Part shown: positions 7,580 through 56,590 of the stretch, in pieces | Position numbering within the stretch: position 1 is the stretch's first letter | Layout of the letters: each line of letters opens with the position of its first letter | DNA from: a virus | Virus record (IMG/VR): IMGVR_UViG_3300028423_000861 | Location: 62,001-126,000 of that record | Length of the DNA stretch: 64,000 nucleotides | Strand: one strand, 5' to 3' | Position numbers and translations under genes: made by a program | Notes under the pieces: generated by a model | Database searches by the model: none | What the model saw: only the letters and a program-made list of their open reading frames with translations | What the model was told of the DNA's origin: nothing

Positions 7580-7835
7580 GCAGATCTTCCTCCTTGACGC
7601 CTAATTGATCCAACACCTTACCGCGATAGTAAAGATGCACAAGTAATACTGGTATTCCAGGAATAGCAGTATAATCAACCCACCATGTCCAATATCCATA
7701 TACCAAATAGGAAACCGGCAAAGATAGCGCAGTGACCAATAAAAGGACCAGAAATATTAAAAAACTGGCCACAAACCATTTCTTGTCGTTTTTATTGACT
7801 CGTGACCAGTCTAGCTCATTCCTCTTCAAAGACAA
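7572..7835 (-). CDS. membrane protein, 87 aa
   Basis: Two transmembrane helices (WFVASFLIFLVLLLVTALSLPVSYLVYG and a following Trp-rich segment) with a charged C-terminus. Overlaps both neighbours, so part of the HD-hydrolase operon. Confidence 0.6.
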   Translation of the reverse strand: MSLKRNELDWSRVNKNDKKWFVASFLIFLVLLLVTALSLPVSYLVYGYWTWWVDYTAIPGIPVLLVHLYYRGKVLDQLGVKEEDLHG

Positions 7836-14402: not shown

Positions 14403-15638
14403 ATGAAAACATTTATCGTCAGAGTTGACAATCCCACCGTTCGTGACACACTTGCCAATCATGGACAAGTTGGTGATCCACAAACACTCAAAAAGATTAT
14501 TATTTTTAAAACTGATCTAACACAAGATGAGGTAGCTGATCTTCCTGGAGTATTGGAGGTTGAAGAAGAAAGTCTTGATACCCCTTTTGATATTGACGCT
14601 TATCCGTATCGAATGGATGGCGATACATCTGAAGAATCCGTTAAACAAGAACGAGAAGTTCAAGTGCAGAGTCGTCCAAGGAGTTGGTTCCTTCCCAGTG
14701 CAAGCAATACTCAGCCAGATTATACCTATACAAGAACTGGTCGTGGGATAGCAATTTATATCATGGATTCGGGCGTTCGCTTAGACCATCGAGACTTTAA
14801 TGGACGCCATATAGAAACTGTTTTTACATATGATGGTCGTGATTATGGTGGTGACGTTCGTGGCGCTGAACACGGAACCATGTGTGCTAGCTGTGCGGCA
14901 GGTAATATTTACGGTATCGCAAAAGAAGCTTCTATTTTTAATGCTCGTTATAATTGGACAAGTTCTGAAGGTATCAAAGCACTTGATACTATACTTGCGC
15001 ATCACCGCACTCATAACATGCCAAGTGTTCTTAGCATGAGCTTTAGCTCATCTAGTAACATTTATGATCAAGCTCTCACAGAATTAGCACATGATGGTGT
15101 TGTTCTTGTATCATCTGCAGGAAATTATGACGAGTCACGTCCGCGTTTCCCTGCTGTTCGTGATGATGTCATCGCTGTTGCAGCCTGTAACGAAAACTTG
15201 TATCCTAGTCGTTGGGGAGGCACTACTCCTGGAACAAACTATGGCAAAGAGGTTGATATTTGGGCTGGTGGCTCGGGTGGTCGTGCAGCAAGCATGGCAT
15301 CTACAACGTCTGAACAAAGTGCTGGGGGGACAAGTTCAGCTTGCCCATTGATTGCAGGCACCGTGGCACTCGTTCTTGAAGACAGTCCTAAACTCAAAAG
15401 CTACGCAGATGTTCTCAATGCAAAAGATATTTTGATTAAAAATTCACGCAAAGGTGTTATCAAATACAACGACGCAAAATATAATGAAACACCAAATCGT
15501 TACATTTATACTCTGATTGACGATGAAATGCCTGAACCATTACCAGTTCCAAAATCCAAGGGTGGAAATATGAAAAAAGCAGCCCTTGTTATCGGGGCTG
15601 CTCTAATACTTGGTATTGTGATATTTGGTATTTTGTAA
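14403..15638 (+). CDS. subtilisin-like serine protease with C-terminal membrane anchor
   Basis: 411 residues on the plus strand. Catalytic Asp in IYIMDSGVRLDHRDFNGR (around residue 125), His in GAEHGTMCASCAAG (around 158) and Ser in SAGGTSSACPLIAG (around 317), with the oxyanion Asn segment VVLVSSAGNYDES. Residues 1-100 look like an inhibitor-type propeptide. The C-terminus has one transmembrane helix (AALVIGAALILGIVIFGIL) after a Pro/Lys-rich linker. It may cleave virion or host surface proteins. It sits alone between minus-strand genes; AAAGGA precedes the ATG, and an ATAAATAC box lies about 25 nt upstream. Confidence 0.9.
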   Translation: MKTFIVRVDNPTVRDTLANHGQVGDPQTLKKIIIFKTDLTQDEVADLPGVLEVEEESLDTPFDIDAYPYRMDGDTSEESVKQEREVQVQSRPRSWFLPSASNTQPDYTYTRTGRGIAIYIMDSGVRLDHRDFNGRHIETVFTYDGRDYGGDVRGAEHGTMCASCAAGNIYGIAKEASIFNARYNWTSSEGIKALDTILAHHRTHNMPSVLSMSFSSSSNIYDQALTELAHDGVVLVSSAGNYDESRPRFPAVRDDVIAVAACNENLYPSRWGGTTPGTNYGKEVDIWAGGSGGRAASMASTTSEQSAGGTSSACPLIAGTVALVLEDSPKLKSYADVLNAKDILIKNSRKGVIKYNDAKYNETPNRYIYTLIDDEMPEPLPVPKSKGGNMKKAALVIGAALILGIVIFGIL

Positions 15639-19371: not shown

Positions 19372-20115
19372 TTATTTTCTTCCCCGAACCCAACCATTCG
19401 GTATATCACTATCTTTCTGTATTCGTTTATTTTTAACACCATCTGTTATCCAAACAGAGCCATACGAATAATTATTTGCACCAGTCATTGCGTTCGAAAT
19501 TTTTTGCTTTGTTTCAGTAGACAATTTATTGCCTTTTCTTGATTCACTCATCTTTTGTCGGGTTGCAGTCGATTTCTTTTTACCTACCAACGCTTCTGAC
19601 AATTTCTTACGATGCTCTTGAGTAATAACCCTTGGCTTTGGCTTCACTGATTTGTTATAGTATGGAATTCCTTGGCATCTTTTTGACATATAATGTTGCT
19701 CAAATGCCGAAACACTTATCTCATTCTGACATTTTAAGCAACATATTCTGTTATGCTTTTTTCCTTTAAATCCTGATGGTCGTTGTTTAGCTTTTTTACT
19801 TATTTTATCTCGAACTTCTGTAGTAAACAAGATTCCTGTATTAATTGAATTATTGTAAAAGGTATTTCCTTCAAATATTTCTTTTTTGTGTTCAGTTAAT
19901 AACTGTCTTTCTAAATTTATTGCTTCATAAGCATTGTCAAAGACTTGAATGATCTCACGTTTCCATTTAATATCAGGATCTTTCCAGTCTTTCCAAAATT
20001 CCTCTGAGCTACTTGATGAAATATATCCATCGTCAGTAGTTCCTTTGTGATACCCTATATATCGTTTGCCTAGTGTATTAGACCATTCATACACAAAATA
20101 TTCAACACGTTTCAT
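19372..20115 (-). CDS. GIY-YIG homing endonuclease
   Basis: 247 residues. The nuclease core is EYFVYEWSNTLGKRYIGYHKGT with KREIIQVFDNAYEAINLERQLL (Arg and Glu of the active site), followed by a zinc-like CCLKCQNEIS..H segment and NUMOD-type repeats (RQKMSESRKGNKLS, ETKQKISNAMTG). Seg-type genes of T4 have this design. It sits immediately downstream of the giant RNA locus and upstream of another structured RNA, so either may be its home site. Confidence 0.9.
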   Translation of the reverse strand: MKRVEYFVYEWSNTLGKRYIGYHKGTTDDGYISSSSSEEFWKDWKDPDIKWKREIIQVFDNAYEAINLERQLLTEHKKEIFEGNTFYNNSINTGILFTTEVRDKISKKAKQRPSGFKGKKHNRICCLKCQNEISVSAFEQHYMSKRCQGIPYYNKSVKPKPRVITQEHRKKLSEALVGKKKSTATRQKMSESRKGNKLSTETKQKISNAMTGANNYSYGSVWITDGVKNKRIQKDSDIPNGWVRGRK

Positions 20116-20507
20116 AAATAAGCCTTTTAACTGTATACTTATTTATGTTAATAAGATGGAAATAGTGAGATTACCTAAATTTCCGCGGTTGCCTTTGGAC
20201 CGTACCGTAAACCTTGCGAGTCTACGTTAATCCGTTATCCACTAAGCGCCTTTCAGCTGACTTAGTATCAACCAGTGCTGCCTAGTTTAAAGTGGTGGCA
20301 TTTCCACTATCGTTACACGCTACTCGTCCTTTGATCTTCCGCCTGCCTTGCGAGCAGTTCAGAGTCGCTAAACCCTTACGTCTTCTCTCCGAACAAACAC
20401 TTCCGCCTTGCGAGCTTCCATGCACGACATTCACCGTAGTGTGTCGTATTAAGCACCTTTAACGTGCAACTGAGGCAGTCTTTGCGTTTTTGCTATAATG
20501 CATCTGC

Positions 20508-20577
20508 AGGATTTGAACCCACACATTCAGTTCCTAAAGACTGACGCTCTACCATTGAGCTAAGTTGCTAACCTACC
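20508..20577 (-). tRNA. tRNA-like domain inside the giant RNA, anticodon UUA
   Basis: GCAACUU...AGAUGC acceptor (two mismatches), good D-arm (GCUC..GAGC), anticodon stem UCAGU/AACUGA with loop CUUUAGG (anticodon UUA, complementary to UAA and by wobble UAG), and T-arm GUGGG-UUCAAAU-CCUGC. No encoded CCA. It may be a real ochre-type tRNA or a mimic fixed within the large RNA. Confidence 0.6.
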
Positions 20578-21027
20578 AAGACGTGCTGCCTCTTGTTGCT
20601 TCGCATCCTTTTGGGAAACGAAATACAACACGCCTAAATGCCTTTCTCCTTGCGGGATACTAAACGTCTTTTCAAGTATCCAGCTACCTCACTAGTCGGT
20701 AACTCTCAACTTTAAAGATAACAAGTTGCCCTCCTGCGCGAACAGTCGGACTATTTGTTTACCCGTTAACATTCTGTCTTCGCTAGATTGGAGTGCATAG
20801 CTTTGGCTCCCACCAAATTGTAACCTCGCCGGTTGGCCCTGGTTACTATCCTTTCGGGCATTTGCTCTAGCTTAGGACTTACCTCGCTCTTCACAAGGGG
20901 TGCGCTACGGCTTATAGGAATACATCCGTCTGCCACCTAGTCCGGGCTTGCGTAAATGGACCATTGCTGGCGCAAGTGCGTAGGCTTCCTTGCTTTGGCA
21001 GTGTTACCACTGTTATCCTCCTGGACG

Positions 21028-21270
21028 TCACGCCGCCCATGTTCTTGTCTTAGATGATGAGTGTGCAGACATGTTGGGATTTAACCAACGAGTCGATTGC
21101 CTGGACATTTGTGTAAGCAAAGGGAAAGGAAATTGACAATCAACACCATCACCTTTGTCTGCACACACGACATCTAAGACCATTTTACAATAATCGGCTT
21201 CTATGTTTTTATATACACACCACTCGCATTTTGATATTATCTCAACGTTTTGACTGCATGGATCTTCCAT
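21028..21270 (-). CDS. doubtful Cys-rich ORF overlapping the giant RNA
   Basis: 80 codons; the first 50 residues contain five Cys (MEDPC...CEWCVYKNIEADYC) and look protein-like, but the Shine-Dalgarno is weak and the rest coincides with perfect RNA stems. Kept as a low-confidence alternative. Confidence 0.2.
   Translation of the reverse strand: MEDPCSQNVEIISKCEWCVYKNIEADYCKMVLDVVCADKGDGVDCQFPFPLLTQMSRQSTRWLNPNMSAHSSSKTRTWAA
21047..21180 (-). repeat. long inverted repeat closing a domain of the giant RNA
   Basis: 10 bp perfect pairing (21047-21056/21171-21180), a 4x4 internal loop, then 11 bp perfect pairing (21061-21071/21156-21166). The enclosed loop contains a T-arm-like hairpin GUUGG-UUAAAUC-CCAAC. 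A possible 80-codon ORF (21028-21270) crosses this structure. Confidence 0.75.
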
Positions 21271-21419
21271 CGCGGCGCAGGAAATTTCCTTTCAGGCCCG
21301 ACGCAGCGGATTGTCCCGCGATTCCATGACCAGGCAGTGTGCATGTAAAAACATAGTTGCCTATGTTGGTCTGCTAAATTTTTAAAGAGCGTGTTGAGCT
21401 TTGCTCAACTTGTTTTACC

Positions 21420-21448
21420 AATATAGTGGTTTTATTTATGTTCGTCAA
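21420..21448 (-). promoter_or_regulatory. sigma70-type promoter of the giant RNA
   Basis: TTGACG (21443-21448), 17 bp, TATATT (21420-21425). Expected start near 21412, at the beginning of the structured region. A 7-bp hairpin GTTGAGC/GCTCAAC lies at 21391-21407, at the expected RNA 5' end. Confidence 0.75.
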
Positions 21449-21828: not shown

Positions 21829-22287
21829 TTATTGTGTTTTATCCAAGACGTTTTGATTATTTTGGATATTCCATGCAGGTTGGATATAATTGATGAGGAA
21901 ATTTTCTTCAACATCAATTAAACTCATCGTCTGAGACACGGCCCCAGAAAACAAATCAATATGTCTGACCTCACTGTTACAACCATAAATCATCACTCGA
22001 TCGTTTTCAAGGGTTTCGCGCAATTTATAGGCTTTGGTAATACCTGTAACGCTGTTGCCGCGCCACCCACCACGATGTTGTTTAAACCTCTGCTCAAGTC
22101 CTTTTCCGGCCTTGCCCACATAAATTACTTCATCATGGGCTACCCAAAGATAAACCTGTGGAATCTTTTGTTTGAATTTGTCTTCTTGGATAACAAAATC
22201 AACAAGATCTCGATCATTGATAAAGATTTCACCAGCATATTCAAAATATAATTTTTTTATTATTTCAGAAGCAGATTTTTGATTCAT
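21829..22287 (-). CDS. GIY-YIG domain nuclease
   Basis: 152 residues. YLWVAHDEVIYVGKAGKGLEQRFKQHRGG carries the GIY-YIG hallmark (here YLW...YVG) with the catalytic Arg, followed by E in VEENFLINYIQPAWN. No NUMOD repeats, so it is more like a free-standing nuclease than a homing enzyme. In an operon with the next two genes. Confidence 0.75.
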   Translation of the reverse strand: MNQKSASEIIKKLYFEYAGEIFINDRDLVDFVIQEDKFKQKIPQVYLWVAHDEVIYVGKAGKGLEQRFKQHRGGWRGNSVTGITKAYKLRETLENDRVMIYGCNSEVRHIDLFSGAVSQTMSLIDVEENFLINYIQPAWNIQNNQNVLDKTQ

Positions 22288-23664: not shown

Positions 23665-24157
23665 AATAATCGATCTTTATCCCAAATTTTTCAAAATTTT
23701 CATGAACATGCTTGTTATGAATCCACTTGTGATCTGGTGCCCCGTATATAGTTCTTCGGTCTGAACCGCGTATCTTGAGAATTTCTCTAAACCTGTGCGA
23801 GTATCTTTCTTTGAATTGCAAGCGGGGATTATTTTTATAATGATGGCGTTCTTTATATGGAATATTCGAATCGACAGGCAACCATATTTTGTTATGGACA
23901 TTGCATTCAGAACATATGAATTCTGATTCTTCACATTCATAATGATAGTCACCCTCGGTGCAGCCACGAGGAGGTTCATATAGAAGTTCTTGAATGTAGA
24001 CTAGATCACAAATCTGAAGAATTTCACCACAGTGAGCACACGGAATTGTTTGTTGGCCCATCGTCTTGTTTTTTTCTTCTATTAGAAAATCTAAAACAAG
24101 ACGATGCTCTTGTATTTTTGATTCAAGCTGATCTAGTTGCTCTTCAATTGTCAACAT
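23639..24157 (-). CDS. zinc-finger protein, 172 aa
   Basis: N-terminal coiled coil, then two Cys pairs CAHCGEILQIC and CTEGDYHYECEES..ICSECNVHNK, suggesting a zinc ribbon, and a basic C-terminal domain with several His. Could be an HNH-like relative, but the HNH core is not clear. Overlaps both neighbours. Confidence 0.55.
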   Translation of the reverse strand: MLTIEEQLDQLESKIQEHRLVLDFLIEEKNKTMGQQTIPCAHCGEILQICDLVYIQELLYEPPRGCTEGDYHYECEESEFICSECNVHNKIWLPVDSNIPYKERHHYKNNPRLQFKERYSHRFREILKIRGSDRRTIYGAPDHKWIHNKHVHENFEKFGIKIDYYDKDLVNK

Positions 24158-24518
24158 CGACTTCTGTTAATCCATGCTCTCTATCAAGATACTTGTATTC
24201 AATTTTTACTGGATCAAATTGTTCAAGTTGTTTGAATACCACTTGGGGATCGAAAGGACCACAAGTATATACATCAAGTTGCATTAGACCAGGCTGTGCT
24301 TCGTCCCAGACATGAAGGGCGATATGACTGGTCTCGATAATTACGACTCCTGTGACACCACGATTTCCTGGCACTTCAACGTAATCAGCAAATGGACCTT
24401 TTAACGCTTTCATGCCAATTTGATCAACAAGATTACTGAGCCAATCCTCAACAAAAACAGTGTCTGCAGGAGGCGAATTAACTTCAGCACGAACAATCAA
24501 GTGTTTGTGAACAATCAT
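24144..24518 (-). CDS. speD: S-adenosylmethionine decarboxylase
   Basis: 124 residues, normal for the short prokaryotic class 1b enzyme. VIIETSHIALHVWDE contains the Ser-His of the self-cleavage/pyruvoyl site and LDVYTCGPFDP the conserved Cys. The N-terminal HLIVRAEV strand fits. It makes decarboxylated AdoMet, the aminopropyl donor for spermidine. speD is known from marine cyanophages; here it lies with EctA/EctB genes that also handle diamines. Confidence 0.9.
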   Translation of the reverse strand: MIVHKHLIVRAEVNSPPADTVFVEDWLSNLVDQIGMKALKGPFADYVEVPGNRGVTGVVIIETSHIALHVWDEAQPGLMQLDVYTCGPFDPQVVFKQLEQFDPVKIEYKYLDREHGLTEVDVDN

Positions 24519-32854: not shown

Positions 32855-32944
32855 TGGCGGAGGGCCCGAGAATCGAACTCGATGCGCTTTCACGCACAAT
32901 CGGTTTAGCAAACCGTTCCAGGCACCAGCCTGATTGTACCCTCC
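32855..32944 (-). tRNA. tRNA-Ser(GCU)
   Basis: Class II, GGAGGGU/GCCCUCC acceptor, loop UUGCUAA, long variable arm, G73 CCA. Confidence 0.93.
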
Positions 32945-38564: not shown

Positions 38565-38820
38565 GTGTCGGATATACCCTTGTTATTTTCCAGTCACTGA
38601 ATTCGTGATATAAGTTGTGCTTAGATTTACACTGCTTCAATACTACTAGTATAGACTCAAAATCTTCTCCGGACAATATTGCCGGCACTTCGCGGCAATC
38701 CTGATAATGCAACATTTGAAAATGTCTTCCATCATCAGTATGAAAATTGATCACTGTTCGATCAATATTAAAATTAACATCTTCCAATGTCATGCCAATT
38801 AAATCAGAAACATGTGTCAT
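38557..38820 (-). CDS. hypothetical protein, 87 aa
   Basis: MTHVSDLIGMTLEDVNFNIDRTV..., beta-rich with two Cys. Operon with the 50-aa gene. Unknown function. Confidence 0.55.
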   Translation of the reverse strand: MTHVSDLIGMTLEDVNFNIDRTVINFHTDDGRHFQMLHYQDCREVPAILSGEDFESILVVLKQCKSKHNLYHEFSDWKITRVYPTHD

Positions 38821-38835
38821 TTTTTCACTTTAATT

Positions 38836-38922
38836 TGGTGCTAGCTGAAGGATTCGAACCTTCGACGGGCAATCGCCAACGGCTTACAAGACCGTTCCCT
38901 TCGTCCACTCGGGCAAGCTAGC
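38836..38922 (-). tRNA. tRNA-Thr(UGU) with long variable arm
   Basis: Acceptor GCUAGCU/AGCUAGC, loop CUUGUAA, class II variable arm GGC-GAUU-GCC, A73 CCA. Threonine tRNAs are normally class I; D-arm (CCCGAGUGGACGAAGGG) resembles class II tRNAs. G1-C72 and C2-G71 agree with known Thr identity. Confidence 0.88.
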
Positions 38923-38942
38923 ATATATATTCAAACAGTATT

Positions 38943-39030
38943 TACGACGGGACTCGAACCCGCACCTCCGGATTTCCAAAACGCTGCAATGCTGTTCCGG
39001 TGAACTACCACTTATTCTACGCGCCTACTG
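38943..39030 (-). tRNA. degenerate tRNA-like sequence
   Basis: Good T-arm GCGGG-UUCGAGU-CCCGU, but the acceptor does not pair and the centre folds as an extended CCGGA/UCCGG stem. Anticodon undetermined. Confidence 0.3.
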
Positions 39031-46186: not shown

Positions 46187-46259
46187 AATTTACATACAGG
46201 AATCGAACCTGTGTCCCCCGGTTTTTGGCCGGGCGGCATATCCACTAGCCCAATGTAGC
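46187..46259 (-). tRNA. tRNA, undetermined, loop CCAAAAA
   Basis: UACAU/AUGUA acceptor core, CCCGG/CCGGG anticodon stem with loop CCAAAAA (C33; triplet AAA), T-arm ACAGG-UUCGAUU-CCUGU. No CCA encoded. Confidence 0.5.
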
Positions 46260-56119: not shown

Positions 56120-56430
56120 CCCCAATTTTTATTGTTATTATGGAGGGATTCTGTTTCTAGGCTCCCTCCGGGCCCAGCTGATTATGCCGCTAGGGCAACC
56201 TCAGCAGGTGCTGCGTTTGTGTTTGCAGTTATTAAGATGCGACTATTTCGCGTTCGCCTCCGACTAACTCCACTTCCCTACAACGTGCATCGATCCTATG
56301 TCGCCCCCATCAAAACATTACTTGCTGTTACACTATGGCCATTAACCTATTTGGTCACAAGTAACGTTATGGTGGAGGCGTCCGGTACTGCCCCGGAGTC
56401 TACTACGCTTTCAAGTTGCTTCCTCGTTAG
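56120..56430 (-). ncRNA. ssrA: two-piece (permuted) tmRNA
   Basis: Upstream acceptor piece ends CGCCUCC-ACCA (56370-56380). After a 61-nt intervening segment (with ACGUUACUUG/CAAGUAAUGU pairing) the coding piece starts GGGGGCG (56302-56308), which pairs with CGCCUCC to close the tRNA-like acceptor. The tag frame (56182-56226) encodes ANTNAAPAEVALAA plus UAA. A 7-bp GGAGGGA/UCCCUCC helix follows, with GCCUAGAAACAGAA in its loop, as in alphaproteobacterial tmRNA. It would rescue stalled ribosomes and tag products for ClpXP/ClpAP. The gene lies just before the HNH gene. Confidence 0.9.
56182..56226 (-). CDS. tmRNA proteolysis tag
   Basis: Fourteen codons from the resume codon GCA to TAA, ending ALAA, the C-terminal form recognised by Clp proteases. 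Confidence 0.85.
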   Translation of the reverse strand, partial: ANTNAAPAEVALAA

Positions 56431-56590
56431 CATGTTTATTTATACAGAAATCCCAGGGCATTGTCAACTGATTTGCAAACGGAAGTAGACAAGAACCACA
56501 GTCATAATCATCTTGTACAAGTCTTTCAAGTAATTCCTCTTCAGTTGCATAATCTTTTGTGCTAATGCCCCTGCATTGACATATTATCAT
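56411..56590 (-). CDS. Bfd-like [2Fe-2S] protein, 59 aa
   Basis: MIICQCRGISTKDYATEEELLERLVQDDYDCGSCLLPF has the CxC...CxxC spacing of bacterioferritin-associated ferredoxins. Its 3' end contains the tmRNA promoter. Iron mobilisation or redox role possible; rare in phages. Confidence 0.65.
   Translation of the reverse strand: MIICQCRGISTKDYATEEELLERLVQDDYDCGSCLLPFANQLTMPWDFCINKHANEEAT
56439..56467 (-). promoter_or_regulatory. tmRNA promoter
   Basis: TTGACA (56462-56467), 17 bp, TATAAA (56439-56444). Predicted start near 56431, just before the acceptor piece. The same -10 region also reads TATAAATA. Confidence 0.8.

Follow-up and report, generated by a model that had tools for sequence, protein, structure and literature searches.

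In the 64-kb stretch of viral DNA analysed here (the window), the RNA encoded on the minus strand between positions 20162 and ~21051 is a member of the known GOLLD class, carried by a large, tRNA-rich phage. By its architecture, as read from sequence comparison, the region upstream of this RNA (21448–21380), comprising a promoter, a hairpin, and a boxA, is an antitermination leader of the type found in rRNA operons. The linker between the two domains of the RNA holds what is probably a non-decoding tRNA mimic, and the anticodon loop of this linker domain is hypervariable across GOLLDs. Within the limits of the literature searched, neither the leader nor a constrained tRNA mimic whose loop is hypervariable seems to have been described for GOLLDs.

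Identity and Architecture of the RNA

The elements of the locus, in order of their coordinates in the window, are as follows.

19372–20115 (−): homing endonuclease, GIY-YIG-like, with NUMOD3 (phrog_314, E 1.8e-17); starts 46 nt past the GOLLD match
20162–20636 (−): GOLLD 3′ domain (RF02032 model 1–416, 181.9 bits)
20498–20569 (−): tRNA-like domain in the GOLLD linker (Rfam tRNA, 50.1 bits; ARAGORN "tRNA-???(ttag)")
20637–21051 (−): GOLLD 5′ domain, placed by alignment; blastn homology to other viral GOLLDs starts here
21044–21180 (−): leader hairpin B, a 10+11-bp composite helix with an internal loop; overlaps the GOLLD 5′ edge
21182–21372 (−): leader hairpin A, which forms a long helix with branches; without a homologue among the loci collected
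21380–21390 (−): boxA GCUCUUUAAAA, which fits the consensus published for gamma-proteobacteria, GYTCTTTAANA, at every position
21393–21409 (−): boxB-like hairpin GUUGAGC-AAA-GCUCAAC, ending 2 nt before boxA; a stem precedes boxA in 18 loci
21420–21448 (−): sigma-70-type promoter, −35 TTGACG, 17 nt, −10 TATATT, with a predicted start near 21412; relatives are alike

An earlier note on this DNA had left the choice between a divergent member of the GOLLD or ROOL class and a new class of RNA, and had named the models of both classes as the check. Of these readings only GOLLD stands. In cmscan, RF02032 covers 20636–20162 (−) over the whole of the model (1–416) with a score of 181.9 bits (E 1.6e-49), well above the curated cut-off of 150, which places the RNA in a known class and rules out a new one. 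ROOL, which resembles GOLLD in being a large, cage-forming phage RNA encoded near tRNAs, differs in that its model has no match here at E up to 1 (among 4227 Rfam families, only GOLLD, tRNA, and a sub-threshold snoRNA were found). Besides GOLLD, the tRNA in the linker is the only Rfam family that reaches significance in the 1.26-kb stretch.

Homology extends beyond the Rfam model in the 5′ direction, reaching ~21051 in blastn searches against other viral GOLLDs (locus L048, 837 nt at 69%, E 3e-71). The core of the RNA, consisting of the 5′ domain, a variable linker with an inserted domain, and the 3′ domain, is therefore ~890 nt long (20162–~21051), similar in length to the GOLLD env-38 (833 nt), and the RNA of 1.26 kb previously described holds as a stretch that is made up of this core and a leader of ~360 nt. 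The three GCAA hairpins noticed there (CUCGCAAG) are present together with one CCCGCAAGG variant, and most of them belong to the GOLLD model. The opinion that the stretch holds no convincing genes agrees with the ORF tested, 21028–21270, which has no match in Pfam or PHROG. The folding energy of GOLLD proper is unremarkable (z −1.5 compared to shuffles).

The virus record, 141,983 bases long, contains one GOLLD, which shares with the members of RF02032 the full 3′ model, a homologous 5′ domain, a tRNA in the linker, and a location in a phage near tRNAs (ARAGORN makes 43 calls over the window, one being the domain within GOLLD). It differs from them in that boxA is separated from GOLLD by ~330 nt of leader that contain two long hairpins and for which a homologue was not found, and in the 8-nt loop of the linker domain.

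In the cage structures published in 2025, the GOLLD linker is reportedly not resolved. The GOLLD env-38, comprising 833 nt, forms a 14-mer cage in cryo-EM, with its 5′ domain (1–420) as the cap and the linker inside, and it has already been stated that tRNAs can sit in the linker, inside the cage (PMC12286853). The 14-mer cage, as well as the rise of expression at lysis, are known for other GOLLD members only (PMC12286853). According to the passage of PMC7567579 that cites the work, the GOLLD of L. brevis is dispensable for phage production.

The homing endonuclease that had been placed next to the RNA is indeed its downstream neighbor, and a second GIY-YIG-type endonuclease ORF (21829–22287 (−), phrog_1111) lies upstream of the GOLLD gene. 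Elsewhere in the window, the phage encodes an S-adenosylmethionine decarboxylase (24144–24518 (−)), a subtilase-family protease (14403–15638 (+)), and an alphaproteobacterial-type (permuted) tmRNA (56139–56488 (−)) that provides a hint to the host. A tRNA-Phe call at 46188–46259 (−) carries the rare anticodon AAA. The tRNA-Sec assigned by Rfam at 32859–32944 (−) looks instead like a tRNA-Ser(GCU) missed by ARAGORN, to which its anticodon loop, UUUGCUAAA, fits.

Collection of Relatives

Search patterns taken from the conserved 3′ domain of GOLLD, picked regardless of the linker, matched 47, 60, and 6 viral contigs, with substantial overlap, and known phages with GOLLD were added via blastn. The RF02032 profile confirmed 53 of 55 and 33 of 35 of the collected records; two viral matches of the first pattern, L014 and L024, are not GOLLD. 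After near-duplicates and truncated ends were dropped, the final set comprised 72 distinct GOLLDs. A scan of bacterial genomes for the GOLLD motif gave 12 matches, none confirmed by the profile, and these were taken as chance. Xanthomonas phage XacN1 (AP018399.1) has two GOLLDs with equal scores (38570–38983 and 357365–357778), possibly in terminal repeats, and in L050 a second, partial 3′ domain is found in tandem upstream of the complete one (1819–1969 and 2479–2815).

The tRNA-like Domain of the Linker

The tRNA-like domain that had been recognized within the RNA is real, and it sits in the linker, for which tRNAs were already known. Its D, anticodon, and T arms are fully paired (4/4, 5/5, and 5/5 pairs), and the elbow motifs GG and UUCRA are in place, as in a functional tRNA. 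The acceptor stem, however, has 5 of the 7 pairs of a functional tRNA, with mismatches and only 2 contiguous pairs from the inner end, the anticodon loop (CUUUAGGA) has 8 nt instead of 7, and there is no CCA. Thermodynamic folding of the domain alone did not yield the cloverleaf, so that the support for this domain is comparative.

A parser that scores the D, anticodon, and T arms, leaving the acceptor out of the score, called the domain in 48 of the 72 linkers at a threshold of at least 18 (the maximum for 360 shuffled linkers was 17.5). Of the 24 uncalled linkers, two carry the domain in a version whose T loop has 8 nt, and one carries it permuted, while most of the others lack the domain, which is thus not essential to every GOLLD. 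The D, anticodon, and T arms are ~99% paired across the 48 domains, a figure inflated by the selection made by the parser, which does not affect the figures for the acceptor. A perfect 7-bp acceptor is found in only 2 of the 48 linker domains, compared to 523 of the 636 free tRNAs on the same contigs, and CCA in 4% compared to 90%; an 8-nt anticodon loop is present in 8/48 and 9/636, respectively. The loss of acceptor pairs is uneven, with the inner four kept in 44–47 of the 48 domains and the outer three in 25, 11, and 26. Compensatory changes are found in every arm, except for two invariant G-C pairs of the T stem. The domain is also present in the Mesorhizobium phage L149, outside the discovery set.

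The linker in L028 (~7600–7690 (+)) contains a circularly permuted tRNA with a perfect 7-bp acceptor and ACCA, in which the T arm is followed by the acceptor 3′ strand with ACCA, a short loop, the acceptor 5′ strand, the D arm, and the anticodon arm. Its score is 24.5, with a maximum of 18.2 in 720 shuffled sequences. This single case of a tRNA shape reached via another topology is suggestive, as it would fit selection for the shape itself. The linker tRNA of L103, with 6 of 7 acceptor pairs and an encoded ACCA, resembles a recent capture.

The closest described counterpart is the tRNA inside the GOLLD gene of Mycobacterium, which was judged a non-functional pseudo-tRNA and the expression of which was not detected (Behra 2019, PMC6582537). 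The domain described here differs from it in that it is seen, across many phages, to covary under constraint, with a loop that is hypervariable.

Variation of the Anticodon Loop

In the linker domains, the anticodon loop varies 6–8 times faster than the body, whereas in free tRNAs the corresponding ratio is 0.3–0.5; variation of this kind was beyond the reach of the earlier note, made from one sequence. Among pairs of linker domains with body divergence of ≤5%, the loop differs at 21% and the body at 2.7% of positions (ratio 7.7), compared to 0.6% and 1.3% (ratio 0.5) among pairs of free tRNAs; since the domain pairs are not mutually independent, these ratios are descriptive of the sample rather than a test. 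The choice of pairs by the similarity of their bodies exaggerates the difference from the remainder of GOLLD, and leaves the comparison with free tRNAs, for which the same choice was made, unaffected.

Two examples are provided by closely related phages. In the Caulobacter phages phiCbK and CcrMagneto, the anticodon loop is almost the sole difference between the two GOLLDs, and U33 is lost in the linker domain of phiCbK. Between the two groups of Caulobacter phages, the fixed differences over 2.7 kb amount to five adjacent bases of the loop (UCUUA in one group, GUCCU in the other) and one other site. In the loop, 5 of 8 positions have changed, compared to 3–9% in the flanks. The more distant BL57 has AUCCU in the same place, with 43/415 changes in the GOLLD 5′ domain and 0/70 in the body of the tRNA-like domain. 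In the second case, L055 and L044 differ by five changes between −1486 and +276 around the domain; the 8-nt anticodon loop accounts for three of these and the D loop for one, leaving 1 change in ~1.7 kb outside the tRNA-like domain. These two contigs, otherwise near-identical, are also distinguished by a tRNA-gene-like insertion of ~117 nt that lies upstream of GOLLD, ~1486 nt before the conserved AAAGGTG motif. L044 and the otherwise diverged L022 have an identical domain, loop included, and exchange of the whole domain as a cassette is therefore possible beside mutation.

Two simple accounts of the loop were rejected. Only 7 of the 26 distinct loops are also found in free tRNAs of these phages, which is more than for shuffled loops, although it speaks against strict mimicry of real anticodon loops at the tip. 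Pairing of the loop with another site in GOLLD would require changes that co-segregate with it, and in the Caulobacter phages none was found save one base, at +426.

The loop may instead be where the domain adapts to a partner that is itself changing, a possibility that we put forward tentatively. Its main competitor, which we consider rather unlikely, treats the linker domain as a tolerated spacer, the arms of which are kept for a compact fold within the cage while the loop drifts under relaxed constraint. The loops do look arbitrary, as 19 of the 26 distinct ones are absent from free tRNAs and U33 is present in 77% of them compared to 98% in free tRNAs, and some GOLLDs have unrelated linkers. 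A plain spacer, however, would not need an intact elbow of the D loop and T loop, nor would it explain why the loop changed far beyond its near-neutral flanks in two independent cases, the Caulobacter phages and L055/L044, each of which could nevertheless reflect a single replacement.

The Promoter–Hairpin–boxA Leader

boxA recruits NusB/S10 and renders RNA polymerase resistant to Rho. In rrn leaders it is preceded by the promoter and boxB (PMC10250234), and its published consensus is GYTCTTTAANA (PMC5725501). The earlier note had reported the promoter of the RNA and lacked the boxA signal next to it. The promoter, TTGACG-17-TATATT at 21448–21420, is present, and its support comes from the same order of promoter, hairpin, and boxA in the relatives, as promoter-like matches overall are no commoner than expected by chance (7 found, 5.3 expected). 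The same is true of boxA, for which the single match in the window is at the level of chance (0.96 expected), with 6 matches in a pattern search of the whole record compared to 4 for a control pattern, so that the case for boxA also rests on the relatives.

A slightly widened form of the published consensus, YGYTCTTTRANAA, matches 16 times in the 68 kb upstream, in the sense orientation, of the 72 GOLLDs, where ~0.6 matches are expected, compared to 0 in the antisense orientation and 11 in 1210 kb elsewhere, an enrichment of ~25-fold relative to the remaining sequence of the contigs. At 18 loci boxA is preceded by a hairpin that ends 0–3 nt away, and in nearly all of them a promoter resembling TTGAC...TATATT is found just before the hairpin. 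The composite of promoter and boxA lies upstream of 19 of the 72 distinct GOLLDs, as well as in L137, a locus outside the discovery set. All 13 additional matches of the composite, in 1224 kb, have the same strand and a 5′ position, and 11 of them precede tRNA arrays (in L048, L054, L038, L022, L026, L028, L035, L012, L027, L017, and L051). The distance from boxA to GOLLD is variable, being ~10 nt in L048 and its kin, ~170 nt in L038, L026, and L054, and ~330 nt in the phage described here.

Like the E. coli rrn leader (boxB-boxA-boxC), the leader thus places a promoter, a hairpin, and a consensus boxA before a long, untranslated, structured RNA; it differs in being located in a phage and in that boxC was not recognized, and its dependence on Nus factors is one that we infer. 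No paper that treats boxA together with GOLLD or ROOL was found in the literature searched.

The boxA-like element could also be real and conserved while serving another role, for example in the titration of NusB/S10 or as the partner of an N-like protein of the phage. boxA can repress, as in the case of suhB (PMC5725501), and phage N acts through boxA plus boxB (PMC10250234). The hairpin could bind a phage protein. Such a role seems unlikely to us, since the order of promoter, hairpin, and boxA is that of rrn leaders (PMC10250234), the leader precedes operons of long untranslated RNAs, both GOLLD and tRNA arrays, and the 18 hairpins have 17 different arm sequences, with no sign of one conserved sequence for the binding of a protein.

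The ~330-nt insert between boxA and GOLLD, for which no homologue was found among the collected loci, is highly structured, with z −5.70 for the folding of the whole leader (21052–21412). The 10+11-bp composite helix reported previously forms hairpin B, with a folding energy of −52.8 kcal/mol compared to −32.2 kcal/mol for shuffles (z −5.75). Straddling the 5′ edge of GOLLD, this hairpin is a possible site of processing by RNase III.

Proposed Mechanism and Significance

The roles of the leader and of the tRNA mimic proposed here are inferred from comparison of sequences. We consider it likely that the RNA is a GOLLD with an rrn-type leader that forms a cage carrying a non-decoding tRNA mimic in each subunit, an estimate that excludes the step in which the loop changes with a partner. 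The leader would load host Nus factors on RNA polymerase, allowing the long untranslated RNA to be made in quantity without termination by Rho. Trimming would follow, possibly through cleavage of hairpin B by RNase III, and the RNA would assemble as a 14-subunit cage, as env-38 does, with one tRNA mimic of each subunit held in or near the cavity. Because of its short acceptor stem, the mimic would escape both cleavage and use by RNase P, RNase Z, and the charging machinery, and in barring tRNA maturation the stem would keep the RNA of the cage whole. Most likely, the mimic would offer its tRNA shape as a handle, or bait, to a factor of the host or the phage that binds tRNAs.

Two other accounts of the domain are far less probable. 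Chance capture of a tRNA that is now a dying passenger, decaying as a pseudo-tRNA, would agree with the location of GOLLD among mobile tRNA arrays and with the nearly intact tRNA with CCA in L103. This account, which we regard as very unlikely, is largely contradicted by the compensatory changes that keep the arms, as well as by the unchanged body of the domain in BL57 next to a diverged 5′ domain and by the presence of the domain in two thirds of the distinct GOLLDs. Also very unlikely is a working tRNA excised from GOLLD, possibly one that suppresses +1 frameshifts through a 4-base anticodon (UUAG), since, although ARAGORN and Rfam call a tRNA and such tRNAs are annotated in GenBank records, the acceptor has ~4 pairs, CCA is almost absent, U33 is lost in phiCbK, the loops are unlike those of free tRNAs, expression of the mycobacterial pseudo-tRNA inside GOLLD was not detected (PMC6582537), and excision would split GOLLD in two.

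Returning to the non-decoding mimic, we can speculate that the cages, produced via the leader with an output like that of rRNA, show in each subunit a tRNA shape that can be neither processed nor charged, and that the loop is a variable recognition tip, subject to diversifying change or to the exchange of cassettes, that serves as a changeable bait or guide in the conflict between phage and host; in this full form the proposal is somewhat doubtful.

The function of GOLLD has been a question since 2009, and concrete handles on it are provided by the rRNA-type leader and by the constrained, probably non-decoding tRNA mimic, the loop of which is hypervariable. Both are open to laboratory testing, as the GOLLDs of phiCbK and CcrMagneto constitute a pair that differs almost only in the loop. 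As the same kind of leader also precedes tRNA arrays, the use of host Nus factors for the production of stable RNAs may be more general among large phages.
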